From positions 1 to 39,716 of IMG/VR virus record IMGVR_UViG_3300035698_003663: a stretch of DNA of 39,716 nt. The stretch is one strand, 5' to 3'. How positions within the stretch are numbered: the first letter of the stretch is position 1; each line of letters opens with the position of its first letter. The position numbers and the translations under genes are program-made. Shown here piece after piece: positions 3,063 through 33,856 of the stretch. The DNA is from a virus. The notes beneath the pieces were generated by a model, which saw only the letters and a list, made by a program, of their open reading frames with translations, searched no databases and had not been told where the DNA came from.

Positions 3063-4241
3063 TTATCCTTTTCTGAATGCGTCAATTAAAGTATCAGCAT
3101 ATGGTAATCCCAACATTCCAGCACCACTCGCGCCTACACCCAAACCTACACCCTGACCAACATGTTTTACTGCTGGCGGTAAATCGGAAATAGCTTTGCG
3201 TGTTGAAAACCCTGGTATTTCACTATAATTTTTTGACTTCCCTGTTGTACCAGCATCTTTAATTAAAGATTTAACTAATTGCTTAGGAGTATCTTTGCCA
3301 GATCGATATTGCTTAACAGCATTATTTAAATATGGCGACATCTCTTTCTTGTAACCTTTAGTAGCATTAATGTATTTCTTAAGTATTTCAGGTTGTTTAT
3401 TCTTAGTTAAGAATTGTGACATCTCACCACGAACACGCCTTTGTAAATCTCTAGCTAGGTTCGCAACATCTTTATCAGCGCCCATCTTACTTTTGTTCAA
3501 TAAACTTTGCAGTTCATGAGCATTTTTAAAATTAGGGTCTTTAGTAAAAGTAGAAAGTGACCTCTTTAGTTGGGGTTTAAATCCTTTAGCTGCTTCTGAC
3601 CCTTCAATATTCTTTATCGCTGATGGAACTCGTAGGCTTTCTTTATTAAGCCCTGTGTCTTTTAAGCTATCAAAAATTCCTTTGTATTCTTTGCTGTATT
3701 TCTTTTCTAATGTAGCTGCTCTTGCGCCAACTTTCTTAGATATTGCTTTAGATGTAAGACCAGAAACTCCAGCAGCTCCAGCGCCCAGAACACCACTTAC
3801 AGACCGGCTAAATAAATCATCCTTTTCATCACCACCAAGTGCAAAACCTGCCGCACCACTAGCTAGCATTTCTTTAGCTAAAGTTTTAGCACCCATAGCT
3901 TTGCTGATTTTACCACCTAAACCTACTACTGGAGCAGATTCACCTAAGAATTGCCCAGTTTTCATTAGCCCTGATTCCATTGGTGATTTAGCCATATCTT
4001 CTGGATTGTAATAAGGTATTCGCTTATCAGTAAATGGCATTAACGCTAAATTACCAAGACTAGCAGCAGATTTCTCAACACCTGAAACTACACCAGTAGC
4101 TAATGCCCCTAAAGGCCTGCCAATTGGTTCATTGATGTTTTCCTGAATCCAATTAGTCGCTTTATCAAAACTAGATGATTCTTGCTCTGGCTCAGCAGCA
4201 TTTAATTGGGATAATATGTTTGGGTCTGTAACCTCTCTCAT
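3063..4241 (-). CDS. Putative ejection (internal virion) protein
   Basis: This 392-aa protein begins MREVTDPNILSQLNAAEPEQ. A longer reading starts four codons upstream at 4253. I chose 4241 because its ATG overlaps the previous stop as ATGA, the standard coupling arrangement, though no strong Shine-Dalgarno is seen for either start. Residues of about 60-180 hold long Gly/Ala-rich hydrophobic helices (ALATGVVSGVEKSAASLGNL, and two more such runs), and residues 180-330 are Lys-rich helical. Amphipathic, Gly/Ala-rich helices are typical of podovirus proteins ejected into the host envelope, and the position matches P22 gene 16. The function is inferred from context and composition. Confidence 0.75.
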   Translation of the reverse strand: MREVTDPNILSQLNAAEPEQESSSFDKATNWIQENINEPIGRPLGALATGVVSGVEKSAASLGNLALMPFTDKRIPYYNPEDMAKSPMESGLMKTGQFLGESAPVVGLGGKISKAMGAKTLAKEMLASGAAGFALGGDEKDDLFSRSVSGVLGAGAAGVSGLTSKAISKKVGARAATLEKKYSKEYKGIFDSLKDTGLNKESLRVPSAIKNIEGSEAAKGFKPQLKRSLSTFTKDPNFKNAHELQSLLNKSKMGADKDVANLARDLQRRVRGEMSQFLTKNKQPEILKKYINATKGYKKEMSPYLNNAVKQYRSGKDTPKQLVKSLIKDAGTTGKSKNYSEIPGFSTRKAISDLPPAVKHVGQGVGLGVGASGAGMLGLPYADTLIDAFRKG

Positions 4242-5581
4242 AATGCGTACCATTTGCCATTTTTTTGAGTATATTTAGAACGATCAATGGGTTGTTGATT
4301 TTGCTCCGCTGAAACACCTCTCATCAAGCCTTTAACCTCTGAAGTCACTTCATCTAACCCCATAGTCTCTCTAGCCGCTTTCATAGCTTCAATTCTAGAC
4401 ATGCCGCTACCCATCTGTTTATCTATAAATTCGACTTTTTTAGCGACATTCTCGTTTAAAATCTTCATGGCTTTTAACTTACCAACAAATTGTCCGTAAG
4501 TATCAGCTGGATTAAACTTCATTGAATTTATTAACCCAAGGTCACGACCAGTAAATGCCCCTTTAATCGCCTTAGCAGCATCGAGTGCAACATTTCCTGA
4601 GGTAGTAGATAACTGACCTAATAACTCTCTATCTTCATCCTTACCGAACAACCTAGCCATATGTTGGTTAACTGGCCCAATTACGTTTTTAGCGTTAGGA
4701 TTGTCTTCAAGTAGCTTAAGAGCCATATCTGTATTAGCTAGATTATCTTGTACAGCACTATAATTGTTTGCTAACTCACCCCTGTATTTAACTCTTTCTT
4801 TAGCAACTTCTTTGCGTTCTGTAACATCTTCAGGCTTGTCACCAATTTTATAAGCACGCTGCTCAATCTTGCCGCTTGGGTATTCAATAGTTTGAAATAC
4901 TTGCCCAGATGCAGGGTCTTGATGTGTGCTAATCTTCTCTTTGTAGCCCTGTCCTTCTAGAAACTTTTTAACCATCGGATTGCTATAATATGCTTCGTCA
5001 ATCTTATCCATACCAGGATTAGATTCGCGTACAACATTAACATCACCAGGCGATGTAACGCCATCTGGAGACTGTGGATTAATACCAGGGCGTTGGCTTA
5101 TGCCAGGCGTGTTCAGCTGTCCTAGCTGCTCTTGACCCTGCTCTATAGGCTGATTCAAAGCAGATGTATCAAAATTCGGACTCTGGATATTAGGTTGTTG
5201 CTGCTGATCCATTTGCATTTGTTGCTGATGCTGCCCTGGACTCATTTGCCCCTGTTGCATTTGTTGCTGGTGCTGTGGACTCATTTGTTGACCTTGACTG
5301 GCTTGTCCACCTTGACCAAAAGCATTTTGTAGATAACTATAAAGCATCTGCTGTTGTTCAGATTCCATCTTCTTCTGTGGTGTCGCATATTGAGTTTGCT
5401 GTAATTGCTCTTGTAGAATCTTATTTCTAAGGTCTGCACCTGTAGATTCTTGTTGCGCTTGTCTAGGCATTTGAGACGTTTTAAAGCCAGACTGTAAAGC
5501 TTCCATTAAGCCTTGCATTCTTGGATCGCCCTGAGTCGGTAACTGTGCTGCGCTTGTAAAACTATTTGGATCGTAGACCAT
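4238..5581 (-). CDS. Gln-rich putative ejection protein
   Basis: This 447-aa protein begins MVYDPNSFTSAAQLPTQGDP. Residues of about 60-190 are extremely Gln/Met/Pro-rich, with imperfect repeats of QQMSPQHQQQMQQGQMSPGQ type. The C-terminal half is helical, with many charged residues. The order small Gly/Gln-rich protein, Gln-rich protein, Gly/Ala-rich protein matches P22 genes 7, 20 and 16, whose products are ejected with the DNA. An AAGGATATATT box precedes the ATG. The assignment rests on position and composition, not on a recognised domain. Confidence 0.75.
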   Translation of the reverse strand: MVYDPNSFTSAAQLPTQGDPRMQGLMEALQSGFKTSQMPRQAQQESTGADLRNKILQEQLQQTQYATPQKKMESEQQQMLYSYLQNAFGQGGQASQGQQMSPQHQQQMQQGQMSPGQHQQQMQMDQQQQPNIQSPNFDTSALNQPIEQGQEQLGQLNTPGISQRPGINPQSPDGVTSPGDVNVVRESNPGMDKIDEAYYSNPMVKKFLEGQGYKEKISTHQDPASGQVFQTIEYPSGKIEQRAYKIGDKPEDVTERKEVAKERVKYRGELANNYSAVQDNLANTDMALKLLEDNPNAKNVIGPVNQHMARLFGKDEDRELLGQLSTTSGNVALDAAKAIKGAFTGRDLGLINSMKFNPADTYGQFVGKLKAMKILNENVAKKVEFIDKQMGSGMSRIEAMKAARETMGLDEVTSEVKGLMRGVSAEQNQQPIDRSKYTQKNGKWYAL

Positions 5582-17183: not shown

Positions 17184-17400
17184 CTTTAATATCCTTAATA
17201 TCTTTAAGACTTATATAACTTTCTAGACCTAGATTAAGAGTGTAATTATTTATGTCCTGTAAGAACCTGACAGCTGAATTAAAAGAATCATCCGTTGATT
17301 CAGAATTGCAAATAATCCTTTCCATTGATTCAATATATCTAAGTGTTGCTTTAGTGGTCGAACATATGTAATCAACCTCAAACTCTCTGCTATCTTTCAT
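17173..17400 (-). CDS. Hypothetical protein (75 aa)
   Basis: The product begins MKDSREFEVDYICSTTKATL and is helical and acidic, ending with a repetitive KDIKDIKDGQ. The ATG overlaps the previous stop as ATGA, and an AAGGGG box lies upstream. I recognise no family. It is coupled to the arm-binding-domain gene before it. Confidence 0.65.
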   Translation of the reverse strand: MKDSREFEVDYICSTTKATLRYIESMERIICNSESTDDSFNSAVRFLQDINNYTLNLGLESYISLKDIKDIKDGQ

Positions 17401-17813
17401 GATTTAACCCCTTTGTTCCTAAGACTTCCTAGCATGCACTTCAAATCATCTATAGCTTTCTTGGTTAAAGATTTCCTGGAGTACTTTAAATACCAATCAT
17501 TTATGGTAAAAGAAATCGCTACCTCTTGGTCGGGAGATAGCAAAGGTTCTCCGTGTTCCATTGGATCTAATCCAATTTTAACAAGCCTCTTTAATCTCTT
17601 ATGTTCTCTGCGCGCAGTTACGATTGATATCAAATCACAAGAGCCTATATGCTTCTTGCGTAGACTCTTAGAGCCTGGCATTCTATAACAATAAACCCAT
17701 GTCCTACATCCACTAGGGCGTACTCTGACATATAAGTTACCACCATCAGTTACCTTATATTCACGCTCTCTAGGCTCAAGGTCATTAACCATTGCTGCCG
17801 TTAGTTTACTCAT
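17397..17813 (-). CDS. Orphan integrase arm-binding domain (DUF4102-like)
   Basis: This 138-aa protein begins MSKLTAAMVNDLEPREREYK. The pattern 'YKVTDGGNLYVRVRPSGCRT', a basic strand and 'ARREHKRLKRLVKIGLDP' match the N-terminal arm-type DNA-binding domain (DUF4102 / Arm-DNA-bind_3) of P4-type tyrosine integrases. A full integrase is about 400 aa. Here the frame stops soon after entry to the core-binding region, and no catalytic RHRY domain follows in any frame nearby. It may be a decayed integrase or a reused DNA-binding protein. The frame is intact, with a good ribosome-binding site (AGG, 7 bases). Confidence 0.75.
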   Translation of the reverse strand: MSKLTAAMVNDLEPREREYKVTDGGNLYVRVRPSGCRTWVYCYRMPGSKSLRKKHIGSCDLISIVTARREHKRLKRLVKIGLDPMEHGEPLLSPDQEVAISFTINDWYLKYSRKSLTKKAIDDLKCMLGSLRNKGVKS

Positions 17814-18191: not shown

Positions 18192-18376
18192 TTATTAGTC
18201 CAAGCCTTTAAACATTTTAAATTACAGAATCGTTTATGCTCTTGCTCAATATGCGTTTCGTTTCTTACTACAATCTCTAAAGTTAAATGACTGCATGGTT
18301 GTTCATTCAACATATCATACAGTTCTTTATCACACTCAGCGCACTTACAGTAATAGCTTTGCTTGCTGTCAGTCAT
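18188..18376 (-). CDS. Small zinc-binding protein (62 aa)
   Basis: The product has CKCAECDKE near residue 10 and FCNLKCLKAW near the end, giving CxxC and CxxxC pairs suited to a zinc site. It begins MTDSKQSYYCKCAECDKELY. It overlaps the sigma-like gene upstream by 8 bases. Function is unknown. The fold resembles small phage treble-clef or zinc-ribbon proteins. Confidence 0.6.
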   Translation of the reverse strand: MTDSKQSYYCKCAECDKELYDMLNEQPCSHLTLEIVVRNETHIEQEHKRFCNLKCLKAWTNK

Positions 18377-18617
18377 CTTGCAGCCTACGTTCTATCTTGT
18401 ACACTATTTGCCTTACCCTCTCACCTGACAACTTGAATATATCACCAATCTCTTTATAGGTGTGGACTCTATCATATAACCCAAGAGCTTTACGCATTAG
18501 GAATATCTCACGGTTACGGTCTGCGGTAGCTTGCCATCTTTTGGTATATGCTACGTTGTTTTTGAATCTGTTATGAACACTGCTAGCAGCCGTTAGTCTT
18601 GCGTTAAAATCACTCAT
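18369..18617 (-). CDS. Sigma region 4-like DNA-binding protein (82 aa)
   Basis: The start at 18617 has an AAGGGT box 5 bases upstream. A longer GTG-started frame (18641) is less likely. The end of the protein reads TYKEIGDIFKLSGERVRQIV followed by YKIERRL, a very close match to sigma-70 region 4.2 (helix-turn-helix with the ERVRQI signature). There is no region 2 or 3, so it cannot be a full sigma factor. A late-gene activator, an anti-sigma decoy or a packaging-specific DNA binder are possible. It lies between the two terminase genes. Confidence 0.75.
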   Translation of the reverse strand: MSDFNARLTAASSVHNRFKNNVAYTKRWQATADRNREIFLMRKALGLYDRVHTYKEIGDIFKLSGERVRQIVYKIERRLQDD

Positions 18618-18855
18618 CACTACCCTTGTTGAACTTATCACAGTAGTACTTTATTACCGCTATTGGGTGGCCTTCTATTCTATCACACATGTTAATCATT
18701 TCCACCGACATGAACTCTGTGTATTGACTAATGTATTGGTTGTATGATTTGTCGCCTATACGGTGAAGTGTTTGAATGTCTTGAAGTAATGCGCAAATCT
18801 CACCAATCATATCATCACGCTTACGGCATACCTCATCAATTTGCTCTGCGTCCAT
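18610..18855 (-). CDS. Hypothetical protein (81 aa)
   Basis: The product begins MDAEQIDEVCRKRDDMIGEI and is all-helical by composition, ending FNKGSDE. Its end overlaps the sigma-like gene by 8 bases. No motif is recognised. Confidence 0.6.
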   Translation of the reverse strand: MDAEQIDEVCRKRDDMIGEICALLQDIQTLHRIGDKSYNQYISQYTEFMSVEMINMCDRIEGHPIAVIKYYCDKFNKGSDE

Positions 18856-22324: not shown

Positions 22325-24211
22325 TTATAGCTCGTCAGCACTACTGTATTTAATGTATTTTCTAGGTTTTGAATTATAATCAAGGTACTGAAAGCTTACA
22401 GGATTGAACCAATAATAATAAGTATCTAGTCTCCCAGTTTCACGATTTTTAAGGTGAAATACACTAGTATCTGGAAGCTGTAACTTCTTCGTCTCATCTG
22501 GTGTAATCATTTCGCCACGCTCTAGTTTTCTTAAAATTGGTTCACGGCTAATGTCTCGCCTTATCCAAAATACTTGGTCGGCTGCGTCAGTTAATGCGCC
22601 TGAGCCTTTTATAGTGTCAAGGTGGGGTTTAACAGGAGTTGTGTAATCATCTTTCGTGCTTTGATCTTTCTTAGGGTGAGCAATCAAGTGGATTGTTACA
22701 TTCTCTTTTGCTGCAAATGCTGATAATTCATTCATAAAGTCAGCCTGTTTAGTTGGTTCACCCTCTAAGCCTTTAATTCTAAATAGTGAATCAATTACAA
22801 AAACATCTATGCCAAATCTCTTAATCACATATGTCATCACTTCAAATATTCGTAGTGTACTTTCTGTGCCGACCTTATCATAAAACCAAAGCTTATCACG
22901 ATACCAATCATGGATGGCATCACAATAATCATCTGTAACCTCACCAGTAGCCAGACCAGCAACCTGATTTGTGAATCTGCATGTTAGTTCGTTCATACTC
23001 ATTTCAAGACTCATCACTAAGAATTTAGCGCCCTCTGTCATTTGATGGACAATCATATGGCTTAAGAATTGTGATTTACCATGCCCAGTAACACCTGTCC
23101 ATAAAATAGCTTGCTGTGGTTTGAATCTTACATTGCCTTGCGTTTTATTACCAAATAATGAATAGTACTCGCCTAGTTCTTCAACACCATCACGCTGTCT
23201 TTTAAATGCTTCACGAGCTTCACACATATTTTTGATTTGTGCGTGATCGTCAAAACATCTAGCATCATATATAGCACGTTCAATTACACTCTTAGTAACT
23301 CCAGACTTTAAACATTCGTTAGAATCATTTTTGGGAAAGATTACATTGTAGCATCTACTATTACCTAGCCTTTTAGCTATAACTAACGCCCCTTTTCGAC
23401 CAGCATCATCATCGTCATAACAAATGTATATCTTCTTAAATCTAGCTAGCCAATCATAATTATGGTTAATCCAGTTATCAGCAGAAGCCCCAGCATGACC
23501 AGTTACAGCAGGATAGCCATATTGATACATAGTTAATGCATCAATCTCACCCTCAGTTATAAACAATTGGGTCGTAGAGTTTGGTACTACATTCATACCG
23601 AACAATGATGGCTCACAGCCTGACTCTTGGCGTATTTGTTTCTTACCCTTTGCATCTAAATTACAATGAATCTTCTTAAGTCTGATAGCTTGGTTCCCTT
23701 TATAGGATGTGAAGACCATCCACAAACCATCAGTTCTAATATTATAGGCATTTAAAGTTGAATCGCTAAGTTTGCGCACCTCAGTAAGATATTTGTAAGC
23801 GCCAGAAGTTCTATCAAGTTTAAACTGCTCTACAGTCTTAGGTTTATCATAGTCAATTGACACCGCAGCTATTACATTTCGCTCTATTTGTTGAGGCTTG
23901 AAATCATCAGGCAGCCTTAGATATTCTTTAGCGTATTTTATAGCCTCTGGAAAGTCACAATTCCTAACATCCTTTATGAGTTGGAGTAAATCACCACGAC
24001 AATCAGGATTTGCTTTATCATGATATCTTCCAGCCCTTTGACCTGTTAGTTGTATCTGCATTGAGTCGCCAGGCTCATTATGCACGTTACCAATTAGCAT
24101 CACTGAACTATTCTTCGTTACTTTACCATTAGGCAAAAGTTGCAAGCATAGATTCTGCGCATCATTAGCCAATAATGCAGCTATATCATGAACTTTTAAG
24201 TCATTATGCAT
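22325..24211 (-). CDS. Primase-helicase (Toprim plus DnaB-type helicase)
   Basis: This 628-aa protein is T7 gp4/Twinkle-like. Toprim motifs are LFITEGEIDAL (residues of about 217-226) and YICYDDDDAG (262-271). The helicase has Walker A TGVTGHGKS (372-380), Walker B DVFVIDS (469-475) and an AHPKK segment near 511. The N-terminal about 110 residues lack the usual four-Cys zinc finger. It should unwind DNA and make RNA primers at the phage fork. The start overlaps the O-like gene by 8 bases. Confidence 0.88.
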   Translation of the reverse strand: MHNDLKVHDIAALLANDAQNLCLQLLPNGKVTKNSSVMLIGNVHNEPGDSMQIQLTGQRAGRYHDKANPDCRGDLLQLIKDVRNCDFPEAIKYAKEYLRLPDDFKPQQIERNVIAAVSIDYDKPKTVEQFKLDRTSGAYKYLTEVRKLSDSTLNAYNIRTDGLWMVFTSYKGNQAIRLKKIHCNLDAKGKKQIRQESGCEPSLFGMNVVPNSTTQLFITEGEIDALTMYQYGYPAVTGHAGASADNWINHNYDWLARFKKIYICYDDDDAGRKGALVIAKRLGNSRCYNVIFPKNDSNECLKSGVTKSVIERAIYDARCFDDHAQIKNMCEAREAFKRQRDGVEELGEYYSLFGNKTQGNVRFKPQQAILWTGVTGHGKSQFLSHMIVHQMTEGAKFLVMSLEMSMNELTCRFTNQVAGLATGEVTDDYCDAIHDWYRDKLWFYDKVGTESTLRIFEVMTYVIKRFGIDVFVIDSLFRIKGLEGEPTKQADFMNELSAFAAKENVTIHLIAHPKKDQSTKDDYTTPVKPHLDTIKGSGALTDAADQVFWIRRDISREPILRKLERGEMITPDETKKLQLPDTSVFHLKNRETGRLDTYYYWFNPVSFQYLDYNSKPRKYIKYSSADEL

Positions 24212-25073
24212 AGTTAGCGGCTCTTATCTCATCAATAATGTATTGTGGCATTTCATTATCATTATTACTGGAATCAGAAGATTGATTGATTAACCTTTCG
24301 ATTTGCTCTTCATCTCTAAAAATAGTTTTGAGTTCAACATAAACTTTCCCAGACTTGTTGTGTCCACCTGGCAGGTTCATATTATGCTTATCGAGCTTAT
24401 TGCCGTCAATAGCTAGCTTGCATTCATCTAGTGTGTAATTAGTTAAAGCCCATTTAAGAGTTTTGTGTCGCCCTTTTAGTAGCTTAGTCTTCGGCTTGTT
24501 GTAGATGACCTGCCAATATATAAACAATTCTACAATTTCTAGTTCCATCTGTTTTGTGGATTTTTGAGCAGAAGATAACCGTGGAACGTCAGTTTCACAT
24601 AGAGTATTAGTTTCTTGATCATGATTAGTATATTGATCTTTATTATGTAGTCGTTTTTGCGGTATGCCGTGTTTACGGCTCGCCGTATTTGCGACTACCG
24701 GTTGTTCTTCAACCAACTTAGCGTCTGTATCGCAGTAATCACGCCCATCTAGGACAATTAAGTATGTTTCACCATAGGAACCATCAGGCTTTCGTTCCTG
24801 CTCGTACCTTATCAACTTCGATTTGAGCAACCATGACATGATTTTGTTATATTTGGTTCGCTTGAATCCGAAATGCTTCATTATCTGAAAAGCTTTAGGT
24901 TGCCAATCGTTACGCATTGATTGCAGGTAAGTCCAAACCAAGAACATGTCAGCATTCTTCATTGGTATGGTTTTAATTAGGTGGTTAGGTACTACTGTGA
25001 AGTAATCACCATCTTGGTATTTAACCTGGTTGTTGCCAGGCTTGAAATGATTAATTCGTTTTTTATCTGACAT
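24204..25073 (-). CDS. Replication initiation protein, lambda O-like
   Basis: This 289-aa protein begins MSDKKRINHFKPGNNQVKYQ. Residues of about 25-110 look like a winged helix (NADMFLVWTYLQSMRNDWQP, MSWLLKSKLIRYEQER). The middle is polar linker. Residues 180-260 (YWQVIYNKPKTKLLKGRHKT, LDECKLAIDGNKL) resemble the C-terminal domain of O-like or DnaD-like initiators that load helicase. It lies directly before the helicase, as O precedes P or DnaB-type genes. The specific family is inferred. Confidence 0.7.
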   Translation of the reverse strand: MSDKKRINHFKPGNNQVKYQDGDYFTVVPNHLIKTIPMKNADMFLVWTYLQSMRNDWQPKAFQIMKHFGFKRTKYNKIMSWLLKSKLIRYEQERKPDGSYGETYLIVLDGRDYCDTDAKLVEEQPVVANTASRKHGIPQKRLHNKDQYTNHDQETNTLCETDVPRLSSAQKSTKQMELEIVELFIYWQVIYNKPKTKLLKGRHKTLKWALTNYTLDECKLAIDGNKLDKHNMNLPGGHNKSGKVYVELKTIFRDEEQIERLINQSSDSSNNDNEMPQYIIDEIRAANYA

Positions 25074-25294
25074 TATTCAGTACCCCTTTTGGATGACTTT
25101 TCAGCTAATAAATTAACGCACTCTAAGAACGAACCTAAAGCCTTCTCTCGGATTTCATTCGCAGGTAATACGTTTGGAACACTCATCCAATAAGATTGCT
25201 CAACAGTCTCTAGGTGCAGTCTCATGATGCCTAGAATCTCTAAAGGTGAAGTGTCGGGATGAATTAGAATTACAGTAGTGCCTAGTTTAGACAT
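25073..25294 (-). CDS. Hypothetical protein (73 aa)
   Basis: The start at 25294 (MSKLGTTVILIHPDTSPLEI) has AAGGA about 9 bases upstream. The frame is open further to 25402, but that extension is Tyr/Asn-rich and reads through AT-rich promoter-like DNA. It is helical and ends AEKSSKRGTE, overlapping the O-like gene start by one base. No family is recognised. Confidence 0.6.
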   Translation of the reverse strand: MSKLGTTVILIHPDTSPLEILGIMRLHLETVEQSYWMSVPNVLPANEIREKALGSFLECVNLLAEKSSKRGTE

Positions 25295-25414: not shown

Positions 25415-25485
25415 CAGCAGTTGGGCAATCTTTTAGCAAAAACGATTGACACGTTTGTAGGTAATTGCTATTCTCCCAACTGCTG
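25415..25485. repeat. 11-bp inverted repeat flanking a promoter
   Basis: CAGCAGTTGGG (25415-25425) and its exact complement CCCAACTGCTG (25475-25485) lie 60 bp apart centre to centre. A second inner pair, TAGCAA (25434-25439) and TTGCTA (25465-25470), has the same symmetry. The enclosed promoter starts transcription in the right arm. It could be an operator pair, a cruciform or an origin-type element. Confidence 0.6.
25446..25474 (+). promoter_or_regulatory. Promoter of putative small RNA
   Basis: A perfect TTGACA (25446-25451), 17 bp spacing and TATTCT (25469-25474) give a good sigma-70 promoter on the plus strand. No plus-strand gene follows. Instead an intrinsic terminator lies about 75 bases downstream. 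Confidence 0.6.
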
Positions 25486-25557
25486 AGTTAGTGGAAAATA
25501 ACAAGTAATATTGTTTCCAGTAATGCTTAATTAGCCGGTTTCATGACCGGCTTTTTA
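25481..25557 (+). ncRNA. Putative phage small RNA (about 75-80 nt)
   Basis: This is the interval from the expected transcription start to the end of the terminator. It has no start codon with a ribosome-binding site and no ORF of useful length. An internal GGAA...TTCC / ACAA...TTGT stem can form around 25493-25518 before the terminator hairpin. It sits antisense to nothing annotated, in a gap of the minus-strand replication operon. Targets are unknown. It could also be an antiterminator-like or decoy RNA. Confidence 0.5.
25533..25557 (+). terminator. Intrinsic terminator
   Basis: AGCCGGT, loop TTCATG, ACCGGCT, then TTTTATTA on the plus strand. On the minus strand the stem is followed by AATTAAG, so the direction is plus. 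No protein gene reads into it from the left, which is why I tie it to the small RNA promoter. Confidence 0.75.
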
Positions 25558-25587
25558 TTATCTAAAACGTATGCATTATTACCTAAA

Positions 25588-25689
25588 TCATTGATTCGGT
25601 CTACTATTATTTGAATCTTCCAACTCATCTGGTAAATCAACATCAAACATTTCAGCTATGTCTTTAAATAATTCGTACAGTCTAAACAT
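25588..25689 (-). CDS. Possible tiny protein (33 aa)
   Basis: The frame reads MFRLYELFKDIAEMFDVDLP and ends NNSRPNQ. It overlaps the winged-helix gene by 8 bases, with CGGA about 7 bases before the ATG. Compact overlap and a sensible acidic helix support it. The short length leaves doubt. Confidence 0.4.
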   Translation of the reverse strand: MFRLYELFKDIAEMFDVDLPDELEDSNNSRPNQ

Positions 25690-25954
25690 AAATTATCCGT
25701 TTCTTGTTTTTGAACTCTCTCATGATGTAACCCTTATCTTCTAGCTTTTTAAAAGCCTTCTGGAGCGTTCTAACGTGAATTCCAAGAGAAGCAGCATATT
25801 CTTTAGAGTCAGGGGCAAACTCTTCACCACGGGCTTCATACTCTTTTACCTTTATACGTGTTATTACGTACACTCGTAGGTCACTGGCGTTTAATGCATT
25901 ATCCATCACTGCACGTTCGGTTACTGGTAATTCTTCTTCAATTTTTGGAGACAT
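25682..25954 (-). CDS. Winged-helix DNA-binding protein (90 aa)
   Basis: The start at 25954 gives MSPKIEEELPVTERAVMDNA. A GTG-started frame to 26011 is possible but its ribosome-binding site overlaps the codon. Residues 45-85 (KEYAASLGIHVRTLQKAFKK, then LEDKGYIMREFKNKKR) form a helix-turn-helix with a wing. It lies between cro and the O-like gene, the slot of lambda cII, so it may regulate early transcription. No direct evidence of CII relationship. Confidence 0.65.
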   Translation of the reverse strand: MSPKIEEELPVTERAVMDNALNASDLRVYVITRIKVKEYEARGEEFAPDSKEYAASLGIHVRTLQKAFKKLEDKGYIMREFKNKKRIIYV

Positions 25955-27235: not shown

Positions 27236-27421
27236 CTATCTTTCAAGCATATCATCTTTTGCTACTAATTTACCATCGGTTAGCTTTTCAAAGCGATACT
27301 GTTGTAGTATAGGAATGCGATCAATTTTAATCCACTTAGTCCCTTGTTGTCTTGCTAATCCTATAGCTTTTGTAGCCGCGTATAGTGAGCCATAGTGTTG
27401 TAATACCTGTGCAACTGTCAT
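27236..27421 (-). CDS. cro: Cro-like repressor (P22 Cro family)
   Basis: This 61-aa protein, the same length as P22 Cro, reads MTVAQVLQHYGSLYAATKAI, then GLARQQGTKWIK, then IPILQQYRFEKLTDGKL. The spacing of 'HYG...A..KAIG', a recognition helix ending in Trp, 'IP...QYRxExLTxGxL' and a basic tail follows P22 Cro closely. It would bind operators in the adjacent divergent promoter region and control both early operons. No ribosome-binding-site conflict: AAGGATAAATAAA precedes the ATG. Confidence 0.75.
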   Translation of the reverse strand: MTVAQVLQHYGSLYAATKAIGLARQQGTKWIKIDRIPILQQYRFEKLTDGKLVAKDDMLER

Positions 27422-27442
27422 TTTATTTATCCTTGTGTTTAC

Positions 27443-27475
27443 GTAACTTTATAGTTGACATCATAGCAGTAACTT
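27443..27475. promoter_or_regulatory. Candidate Cro operator repeats
   Basis: GTAACTT followed by one base and ATA occurs at 27443-27453 and 27469-27479, as direct repeats 26 bp apart. They straddle the -35 of the plus promoter and the -10 of the minus promoter. That is the right place for a regulator that controls both directions. I cannot define a full palindromic operator. Confidence 0.4.
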
Positions 27476-27483
27476 GATAAAAT
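27455..27483 (+). promoter_or_regulatory. Strong promoter for recombination operon
   Basis: A perfect TTGACA (27455-27460), 17 bp, then TAAAAT (27478-27483). It drives HNH, YqaJ exonuclease, RecT and SSB, with a leader of about 45 nt. It is almost superimposed on the opposing cro promoter. Confidence 0.75.
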
Positions 27484-27488
27484 CTCAA
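27460..27488 (-). promoter_or_regulatory. Strong promoter for cro / replication operon
   Basis: On the minus strand TTGAGA (27483-27488), 17 bp, then TATGAT (27460-27465), 5/6 at each box. RNA polymerase bound here would exclude polymerase from the plus promoter, since the two share 24 bp. The first gene is cro, about 40 bases downstream. Confidence 0.7.
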
Positions 27489-27534
27489 TCGTTAATCACA
27501 ATAAAGCATATATAAATTAATCGGAGAATATAAA

Positions 27535-28155
27535 ATGTTAACACCAGAACGAAAATGTGAAGTAGATAATTGTAATGCAAAGCATTATGGTCGCGGATAT
27601 TGCAGTAAGCATTTCCGTAGGTTTAAGAGGCACGGTAATCCACTTATTGTACTTCCTAAAAGTATAAAACCAACAAATAAAATTGAAGTATCAATGCAGC
27701 AGCATTTTGAGTCTAAATTCGTCAGAGAAGATATCAATAAATGCTGGGAATGGCTAGGTGCAAAAGATAAAGATGGCTACGGTGATTTTAACTTCATAAA
27801 AGGTTACCAGAGCTACGCAAAATTAAAGGCACATCGTGTCAGTTATGAATTCTATAAAGGTAAAATATCTAAAGGATTAATGGCTTGCCATACTTGTGAT
27901 AACAGGGGTTGTGTTAATCCGCATCATATCTTTATCGGAACTGCTCAAGACAATGCTACTGACATGGTTAAGAAAAAGCGTTCCATGAGTGGTGAAAGAA
28001 ACAATAAAGCTAAACTAACTATTCAAGATGTTAAACACATAAAGAGCTACCTCTACCAAGGTGTTAAACGTATGGTTTTATCTGAAATATACAAGGTACA
28101 TCCAGATACAATTAGCCGCATTAAAACTGGTGTTCAGTGGGGTGACGTATGTTAA
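27535..28155 (+). CDS. HNH endonuclease (HNH_3 type)
   Basis: This 206-aa protein has an N-terminal Cys/His cluster (C8, C13, C23, H26) that may bind zinc. The nuclease core has CWEWLG (70-75), KAHRVSYE (98-105) and CHTCDNRGCVNPHHIFIGT (118-136). The C-terminus (residues 155-206, NNKAKLTIQDVKHIKSYL) is a DNA-binding helix module like those of homing endonucleases. A GGAG box is 8 bases before the ATG. It overlaps the exonuclease by 7 bases. It is probably a mobile free-standing endonuclease, sitting between cro and exo. Confidence 0.85.
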   Translation: MLTPERKCEVDNCNAKHYGRGYCSKHFRRFKRHGNPLIVLPKSIKPTNKIEVSMQQHFESKFVREDINKCWEWLGAKDKDGYGDFNFIKGYQSYAKLKAHRVSYEFYKGKISKGLMACHTCDNRGCVNPHHIFIGTAQDNATDMVKKKRSMSGERNNKAKLTIQDVKHIKSYLYQGVKRMVLSEIYKVHPDTISRIKTGVQWGDVC

Positions 28156-32877: not shown

Positions 32878-33368
32878 TATCCCGAAATCTCCATTGCTAA
32901 AATTGTTGATGATGACCTGTTATTAGTAGCTGAATTTTGATCTGCAATACTATAATTAATTCTAACAGTCGACTGTGATGATACTTGAATCTTATATGTG
33001 ATTGCAATTGTCGATGCTGGTGAATCTAAATAACTAATAGCAACCGAGTTAGTATTATTATTAGCTGCGCCTGACATCTGCATACCTGTTGTAGATACTG
33101 TACGACTTCCTGCTGTGTCACCAACTATTAAAGCTGAGCCATCTTTTACTAAGTTTAGAAATGACTGCGCGTTGCTTGTACTACCATAACAACATGCAGA
33201 TAAAATTAAAATCTTACTCGTTGCTGATGATGGAGTAATAGTAACCGATAACCCCGGCACATCAGTCATTGTTGCTGATGTAAGTGTAAAGGTATCCACC
33301 TTAGTAGCGTAGACTATTTGTAATATCTCTCCACCACCTGATGCACATCCTGTTGCTGAATTGGCCAT
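32877..33368 (-). CDS. Tandem fibre-module paralogue, copy 3
   Basis: This 163-aa protein begins MANSATGCASGGGEILQIVY. It shares with the next two genes the blocks 'KTDTFT', 'GLSVTITPSSATSKILI', 'VGDTAGSRT', 'SYLDSPAST' and 'TYKIQVSS'. This is a beta-structured module that is common in phage tail fibres. It is the third of three one-base-overlapping copies. It probably builds receptor-binding or decorating trimers, which is inference. Confidence 0.75.
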   Translation of the reverse strand: MANSATGCASGGGEILQIVYATKVDTFTLTSATMTDVPGLSVTITPSSATSKILILSACCYGSTSNAQSFLNLVKDGSALIVGDTAGSRTVSTTGMQMSGAANNNTNSVAISYLDSPASTIAITYKIQVSSQSTVRINYSIADQNSATNNRSSSTILAMEISG

Positions 33369-33856
33369 TATGCAAGTACCTCAATTAATGTCAGTGATGA
33401 CACCGACCTATTTATAGTAGAAGTATCAGCATCATTAACACTTTTATTAATAGTAATTGTAGTGCCAGTTTCTGCCGCAACTTGAACTTTGTATGTTAAA
33501 GCTGAAGTTGATGATGGTGAATCTAAATAAGTTATACCCGATGACATTGTATTGTCAGATGATGGTGTAATTACCGTCATACCAATACTTGCTTGTGTTC
33601 TGTTACCTCCTGCGTCACCTTCTAAAATTACAACGGCATCTCTTAATATTCTAGCAAAAGTTTGCGACTGTGTATTACCACCATTGTTTAAATTTACTAT
33701 TACCAATATCTTACTGCTCGTTGCTGACGGTGTGATACTTGCTGACAACCCTGTTAAGTCTGCAAAAGTTGTGCTAGCCATACTGAAAGTATCAGTCTTG
33801 TTAACACTCACTATGCCACCACCACCTGCTGAGCATCCTGTTGCTGAATTAGCCAT
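33368..33856 (-). CDS. Tandem fibre-module paralogue, copy 2
   Basis: This 162-aa protein begins MANSATGCSAGGGGIVSVNK. It has the same block order as the copies on each side (SKILVIV, EGDAGGNRT, ITYLDSPSST, LTYKVQVAAE). Loops between strands differ strongly from copies 1 and 3, as expected if the exposed surface is diversifying. The stop overlaps the next ATG. Confidence 0.75.
   Translation of the reverse strand: MANSATGCSAGGGGIVSVNKTDTFSMASTTFADLTGLSASITPSATSSKILVIVNLNNGGNTQSQTFARILRDAVVILEGDAGGNRTQASIGMTVITPSSDNTMSSGITYLDSPSSTSALTYKVQVAAETGTTITINKSVNDADTSTINRSVSSLTLIEVLA

Follow-up and report, generated by a model that had tools for sequence, protein, structure and literature searches.

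A putative oop-like antisense transcription unit ahead of the replication initiator gene of an IMG/VR virus

In bacteriophage lambda, OOP RNA together with RNase III destabilises the cII mRNA, and transcription from its promoter pO opposes that from pR and affects replication (PMC3985674, PMC5869508). A LexA site was reported in pO (PMC5869508). The oop of phage P22 is a 63-nt RNA that was detected by RNA sequencing (PMC13397905). The order on the lambda genome is cro, cII, oop, O with the iterons inside, and P. The annotated order on the P22 genome is cro, c1, oop on the opposite strand, orf48, gene 18 with an internal origin, and gene 12 for the helicase. Another group of phage antisense RNAs, the sar RNA of P22 and C4-type RNAs, has targets in the immunity region (ant).

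The DNA analysed here, referred to as the window, is the whole stretch of 39,716 bases of the virus record IMGVR_UViG_3300035698_003663 and has GC content of 39%. Judging from sequence, a locus in the early operon of this virus is rather likely the counterpart of the lambda and P22 pO/oop unit, with a short antisense transcript before the origin gene. It was identified as oop-like because its surroundings match the replication layout of P22 and lambda.

Replication operon and candidate origin

The order of transcription on the minus strand is P22-type Cro, small ORFs, winged-helix protein, 33-aa ORF, the gap with the locus, 73-aa ORF, O-like initiator, and primase/helicase. The features are as follows:

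27236..27421, minus: P22-type Cro (Pfam P22_Cro, 35.0 bits against a cut-off of 30.2)
25682..25954, minus: winged-helix/HTH protein in the cII position, not CII-like
25588..25689, minus: ORF of 33 aa, directly upstream of the gap in the operon
25073..25294, minus: small ORF of 73 aa between the predicted RNA gene and the initiator gene, in the position of orf48 of P22
24204..25073, minus: O-like replication initiator (PHROG replication initiation families, E down to 2.6e-12)
24650..24697: three tandem 16-bp iterons within the initiator gene (starts 24650, 24666, and 24682), ori-lambda-like
22325..24211, minus: primase/helicase (phrog_239, E 1.2e-88)

The sequence-only reading had placed the locus in a gap of an oppositely transcribed replication operon, and this holds; Cro lies upstream and the O-like initiator and primase/helicase lie downstream. 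The oop of P22 likewise runs against the early operon, with the regulatory genes on one side and, on the other, a small ORF, an O-like gene with internal origin, and a helicase gene, and it also has a promoter-hairpin-terminator arrangement. P22 and the window phage both encode P22-type Cro and a P22-type portal protein, the latter only distantly P22-like in the window. The 73-aa ORF has a Shine-Dalgarno sequence AAGGA ahead of its ATG. Zero strict terminators were found on the operon (minus) strand from Cro to past the helicase gene, and sense read-through is therefore expected here. At 27421-27535, the genes for Cro and for an HNH endonuclease diverge, with no recognisable CI-type repressor gene opposite that of Cro.

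The iterons have the sequences GTCGTTTTTGCGGTAT, GCCGTGTTTACGGCTC, and GCCGTATTTGCGACTA, and each is partly palindromic. Together they fold to a hairpin of -36 kcal/mol, and no other plus-strand hairpin in the window is as stable. On their downstream side is an AT-rich stretch (24611-24649). As in lambda-type origins, with iterons inside the O gene and an AT-rich stretch downstream, these elements within the initiator gene represent a probable replication origin similar to ori-lambda.

Promoter, terminator, and inverted repeat

The following elements were recognised in the gap between the 33-aa and 73-aa ORFs:

25415..25485: nested inverted repeat across the promoter, with arm pairs of 11, 6, and 5 bp
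25436..25445, minus: TCGTTTTTGC, identical to 10 bp of iteron 1 and adjoining the -35 box
25446..25474, plus: pO-like promoter, TTGACA + 17 bp + extended -10 (TGC)TATTCT
25481..25557, plus: predicted OOP-like small RNA of about 77 nt (fold z=-4.31; both ends predicted)
25487..25524, plus: 5' hairpin of the predicted RNA, according to its fold
25533..25560, plus: intrinsic terminator AGCCGGTTTCATGACCGGCT + TTTTTATT, with stem 25533-25552 (-12.8 kcal/mol) and T tract

The promoter had been called perfect. This description holds for the -35 box TTGACA (25446-25451) and the 17-bp spacer but not for the -10 box TATTCT (25469-25474), which matches at four of six positions only, though with extended TGn, giving 10/12 overall. 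Promoters of such grade occur at chance level (39 found vs. 39.9 expected in 10 kb, according to shuffles). The plus-strand terminator is among only three strict terminators in the window and, as had been noted, it follows the promoter with no meaningful ORF between them. The window has a single promoter of at least 10/12 at 35-90 bp before a strict terminator, compared with an expectation of 0.025 (P=0.025, shuffling); this and the other P values at the locus apply to a region chosen after the fact, among many gaps. The 150-nt region folds as three successive hairpins, formed by the inverted repeat, the 5' hairpin, and the terminator (z=-4.95 vs. shuffles). The predicted 3' end of the RNA is about 30 nt short of the stop codon of the 33-aa ORF. 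No match at gathering score was obtained in an Rfam search of the window, and the weak hits, RyhB and mir-266 among them (E 0.28-2), were attributed to chance. A LexA box CTGT-N8-ACAG with up to one mismatch is absent near 25.4-25.5 kb, although this consensus may not be that of the host.

The outer 11-bp arms of the inverted repeat are CAGCAGTTGGG (25415-25425) and CCCAACTGCTG (25475-25485), and the middle arms are TAGCAA (25434-25439) and TTGCTA (25465-25470). These two nested pairs were known from the sequence-only reading, which had missed the third, inner pair AAACG (25440-25444) and CGTTT (25452-25456). The repeat is centred on the -35 box, and one arm covers the predicted start site. 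In RNA of either strand it would form a hairpin of about -25 kcal/mol (-25.8 kcal/mol, z=-4.0, on the minus strand). Equally or more stable hairpins are present elsewhere, in 18 of 9,911 plus-strand windows folded and in 53 on the minus strand. Perfect 11-bp inverted repeats with a loop of up to 60 were found twice in the window vs. 1.03 expected per shuffled window; restricted to the gap, P is 0.008. The arm sequences do not recur exactly elsewhere, the cro promoter region included, and the exact repeat used as a DNA pattern in a search for relatives gave zero matches. A comparable inverted repeat around the promoter is absent from lambda and from the Snodgrassella prophage described below. 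An attC site was also considered and rejected, as the arms carry GTTGGGC...CCCAAC, in an order that is wrong for R''...R'. The inverted repeat may serve as a hairpin at the start of the replication mRNA, be bound by a protein, or have arisen by chance.

The predicted RNA has the size of lambda OOP, about 77 nt and within the range of about 60-80 nt for such RNAs, and it has the same two hairpins, i.e., a 5' hairpin and the terminator, behind its own predicted sigma-70 promoter. Both are placed opposite to an early operon with an O or O-like gene that has internal iterons, and the distance from -10 to terminator stem is 54 bp in lambda vs. 58 bp in the window. The promoters differ, as lambda pO is TTGAGT-17-CATAAT on the start codon of O and that of the window is TTGACA-17-TATTCT off the start codon. 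Furthermore, lambda OOP is antisense to cII and has a LexA site in pO, neither of which applies to the window RNA. The oop of P22 reaches into c1, whereas the 3' part of the window RNA is not complementary to the end of a cII or c1 gene; it has no coding overlap, and no CII-like gene was found. The P22 promoter overlaps the start of the small ORF, but that of the window overlaps the start of neither the initiator gene nor the 73-aa ORF and lies about 150 bp upstream of the latter. The promoter-spanning inverted repeat is a further difference from P22. Blastn against 50,697 phage records gave no match, and the DNA shows no similarity to that of P22. The motif TCCAGTAATG, common to lambda OOP and the predicted RNA, was given no weight, as it sits in opposite hairpin arms. 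Because a CII gene, coding overlap, start-codon promoter, LexA box, and sequence match are all missing, the RNA was not filed as an OOP homologue. The sar and C4-type RNAs are similar as short phage antisense RNAs with a terminator, located between genes, but they differ in their immunity-region (ant) targets, and the window gave no Rfam match at gathering score.

Related loci in other phages

Protein searches revealed no close relatives of the initiator, helicase, or RecT in viral contigs. Among distant relatives with the same helicase family, 71 non-redundant upstream regions were compared. A strict terminator before the initiator gene was present on the opposite strand in 12/71 and on the same strand in 0/71. 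In a gene-body control of 196 kb of these relatives, there were 22 opposite-strand and three same-strand terminators. Much of the terminator enrichment is thus same-strand depletion, and only promoter-terminator pairs and conserved elements were therefore counted. Such pairs were found in the window and in five Snodgrassella prophage sequences of one clade; the 196 kb of gene bodies had none, and 145 kb from regions further upstream had one.

In the Snodgrassella prophages (L133, L135, L204, L205, L210, L219, and L240), an OOP-like unit is located near position 4850 of the oriented loci. It consists of an opposite-strand TTGACA-17-CATAAT, a hairpin, and a terminator 51-62 bp on. The unit resembles that of the window in the related primase/helicase and in the opposite-strand promoter-hairpin-terminator arrangement before the initiator gene. 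It differs in its -10 box, which is on the initiator start codon as in lambda, and it has no inverted repeat around the promoter. Compensatory changes in the hairpin were limited to one pair, no better than in shuffles. No report of an OOP-like unit in Snodgrassella prophages was found in the collection of papers searched.

Phages G017 and G016 have coat proteins 61-63% identical and helicases about 35% identical to those of the window phage. The non-coding gap before their initiator genes contains an element that is 85-95% identical between the two, compared with about 20-50% in the flanking coding DNA:

L093 of G017, about 4145-4245: conserved gap element
L095 of G016, about 3910-4010: conserved gap element

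Its components are the inverted repeat GACAAAAAG/CTTTTTGTC, a hairpin of small size, and a terminator on the opposite strand; a clear sigma-70 promoter was not recognised in it (6/12). The GAATTGTAACCTGCAATTGTTC motif of these relatives is confined to G015-G017.

Possible function and other features of the window

From the elements, their order, the folds, and the positional parallels, we infer a unit in which the sigma-70 promoter at 25446-25474 would start a plus-strand RNA near 25481 that would end at the terminator near 25557. Such an RNA would pair without mismatch with the part of the operon mRNA that lies between the genes, and the resulting duplex may be cleavable by RNase III. The promoter would fire head-on against RNA polymerases on their way to the origin within the initiator gene. 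Duplex, collision, or both may lower or time the expression of the replication genes or the upstream genes, and the inverted repeat may give the processed replication mRNA a stable 5' hairpin or serve as a protein site at the promoter. A self-contained small RNA gene had been proposed earlier as one without a match among described phage RNAs; the gene remains the best reading of the sequence, but it corresponds to oop of lambda and P22 in place and orientation. In favour of the oop-like unit are the match to the P22 gene order, the internal iterons with their AT-rich stretch, the lambda spacing, the expected sense read-through, the Snodgrassella units, the conserved element of G016 and G017, and the findings cited for lambda pO and P22 oop. 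Counted against it are the lack of ORF overlap, the upstream gene that is not CII-like, the 150 bp from the promoter to the next start codon, the G016/G017 element without clear promoter, and the absence of a terminator at this place from most of the 71 relatives. To these are added the antisense terminators that occur by themselves in gene bodies as well, the Snodgrassella covariation that is not significant, and the absence of close relatives of the early region from the searched collections.

It is unlikely that the inverted repeat is itself the functional part, as a hairpin in the leftward operon mRNA (an RNase III site or a stabiliser of the 5' end of the replication mRNA), and that the promoter is accidental. 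The fold of the minus strand, the location in the mRNA immediately before the replication genes, and the chance-level grade of the promoter match by itself are consistent with such a hairpin; it leaves unexplained a strong plus-strand terminator with no other gene to end, and hairpins of comparable stability are found elsewhere on both strands. An ordinary gap, in which the promoter match and the inverted repeat are incidental and the terminator does no more than stop stray antisense transcription, is considered rather improbable. About one 11-bp inverted repeat is indeed expected per window, and the promoter grade is that of chance. The joint promoter-terminator occurrence and the inverted repeat inside the gap (P=0.025 and P=0.008, both weakened by the post hoc choice of gap) speak against coincidence, as does the position shared with oop of P22 and lambda.

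The arms might also be an operator pair where binding of a phage protein would bend the promoter DNA or form a loop across it, possibly with contact of the initiator at the iteron-like 10-mer, but the probability of this is low even in comparison with coincidence. The arms flank the promoter core with one over the start site, and TCGTTTTTGC has no copy in the window other than those beside the -35 box and in iteron 1. It is a possible, though weak, candidate for an initiator contact; by rough estimate, coincidence would produce such a match with a probability of about 1%. Neither arm is a palindrome, and the arms have no further exact copies and are without counterpart in lambda or the Snodgrassella prophage. 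DNA looping had been suggested from an arm spacing near a whole number of helical turns, but 60 bp correspond to 5.71 turns at 10.5 bp per turn, so the argument fails as stated, and looping has no support from the properties of the arms. Regulation in trans, with the RNA pairing to messages of the phage or its host, is very improbable. The search for such pairing, which had been proposed earlier, gave a best duplex with the start of the gene at 33368-33856 (minus) of -36.9 kcal/mol, slightly beyond 100 shuffles, but the gain over self-folding is only -10 kcal/mol, and the perfect cis duplex is far stronger (-133 kcal/mol).

Within the oop-like reading, a variant is conceivable but quite doubtful. 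The promoter within the inverted repeat would have an iteron-like half-site at -35, through which the initiator would switch the antisense RNA and time origin firing, and the repeat-hairpin-terminator elements of G015, G016, and G017 would be the same device. If the locus is an oop-like unit in the general sense, oop-type antisense transcription would reach beyond the lambda and P22 cases considered here, to Snodgrassella prophages and to a phage whose replication module has a primase/helicase. This would suggest that a short head-on transcript before the origin gene recurs in replication modules of lambda type whether or not cII is there, and the debated role of pO in replication would become testable in phages that have no CII gene to control.

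Elsewhere in the window, no tRNA genes were found when searched for. The minus strand at 17397-17813 encodes a protein of 138 aa in which an integrase arm-DNA-binding domain (Pfam PF13356) was recognised; the ORF lacks a catalytic domain, and its product is either what is left of an integrase or a DNA-binding protein that acts by itself. Also on the minus strand, at 18369-18641, sigma-70 region 4 (Pfam PF04545, above cut-off) was identified in a protein of 90 aa, possibly a phage transcription factor for late genes.
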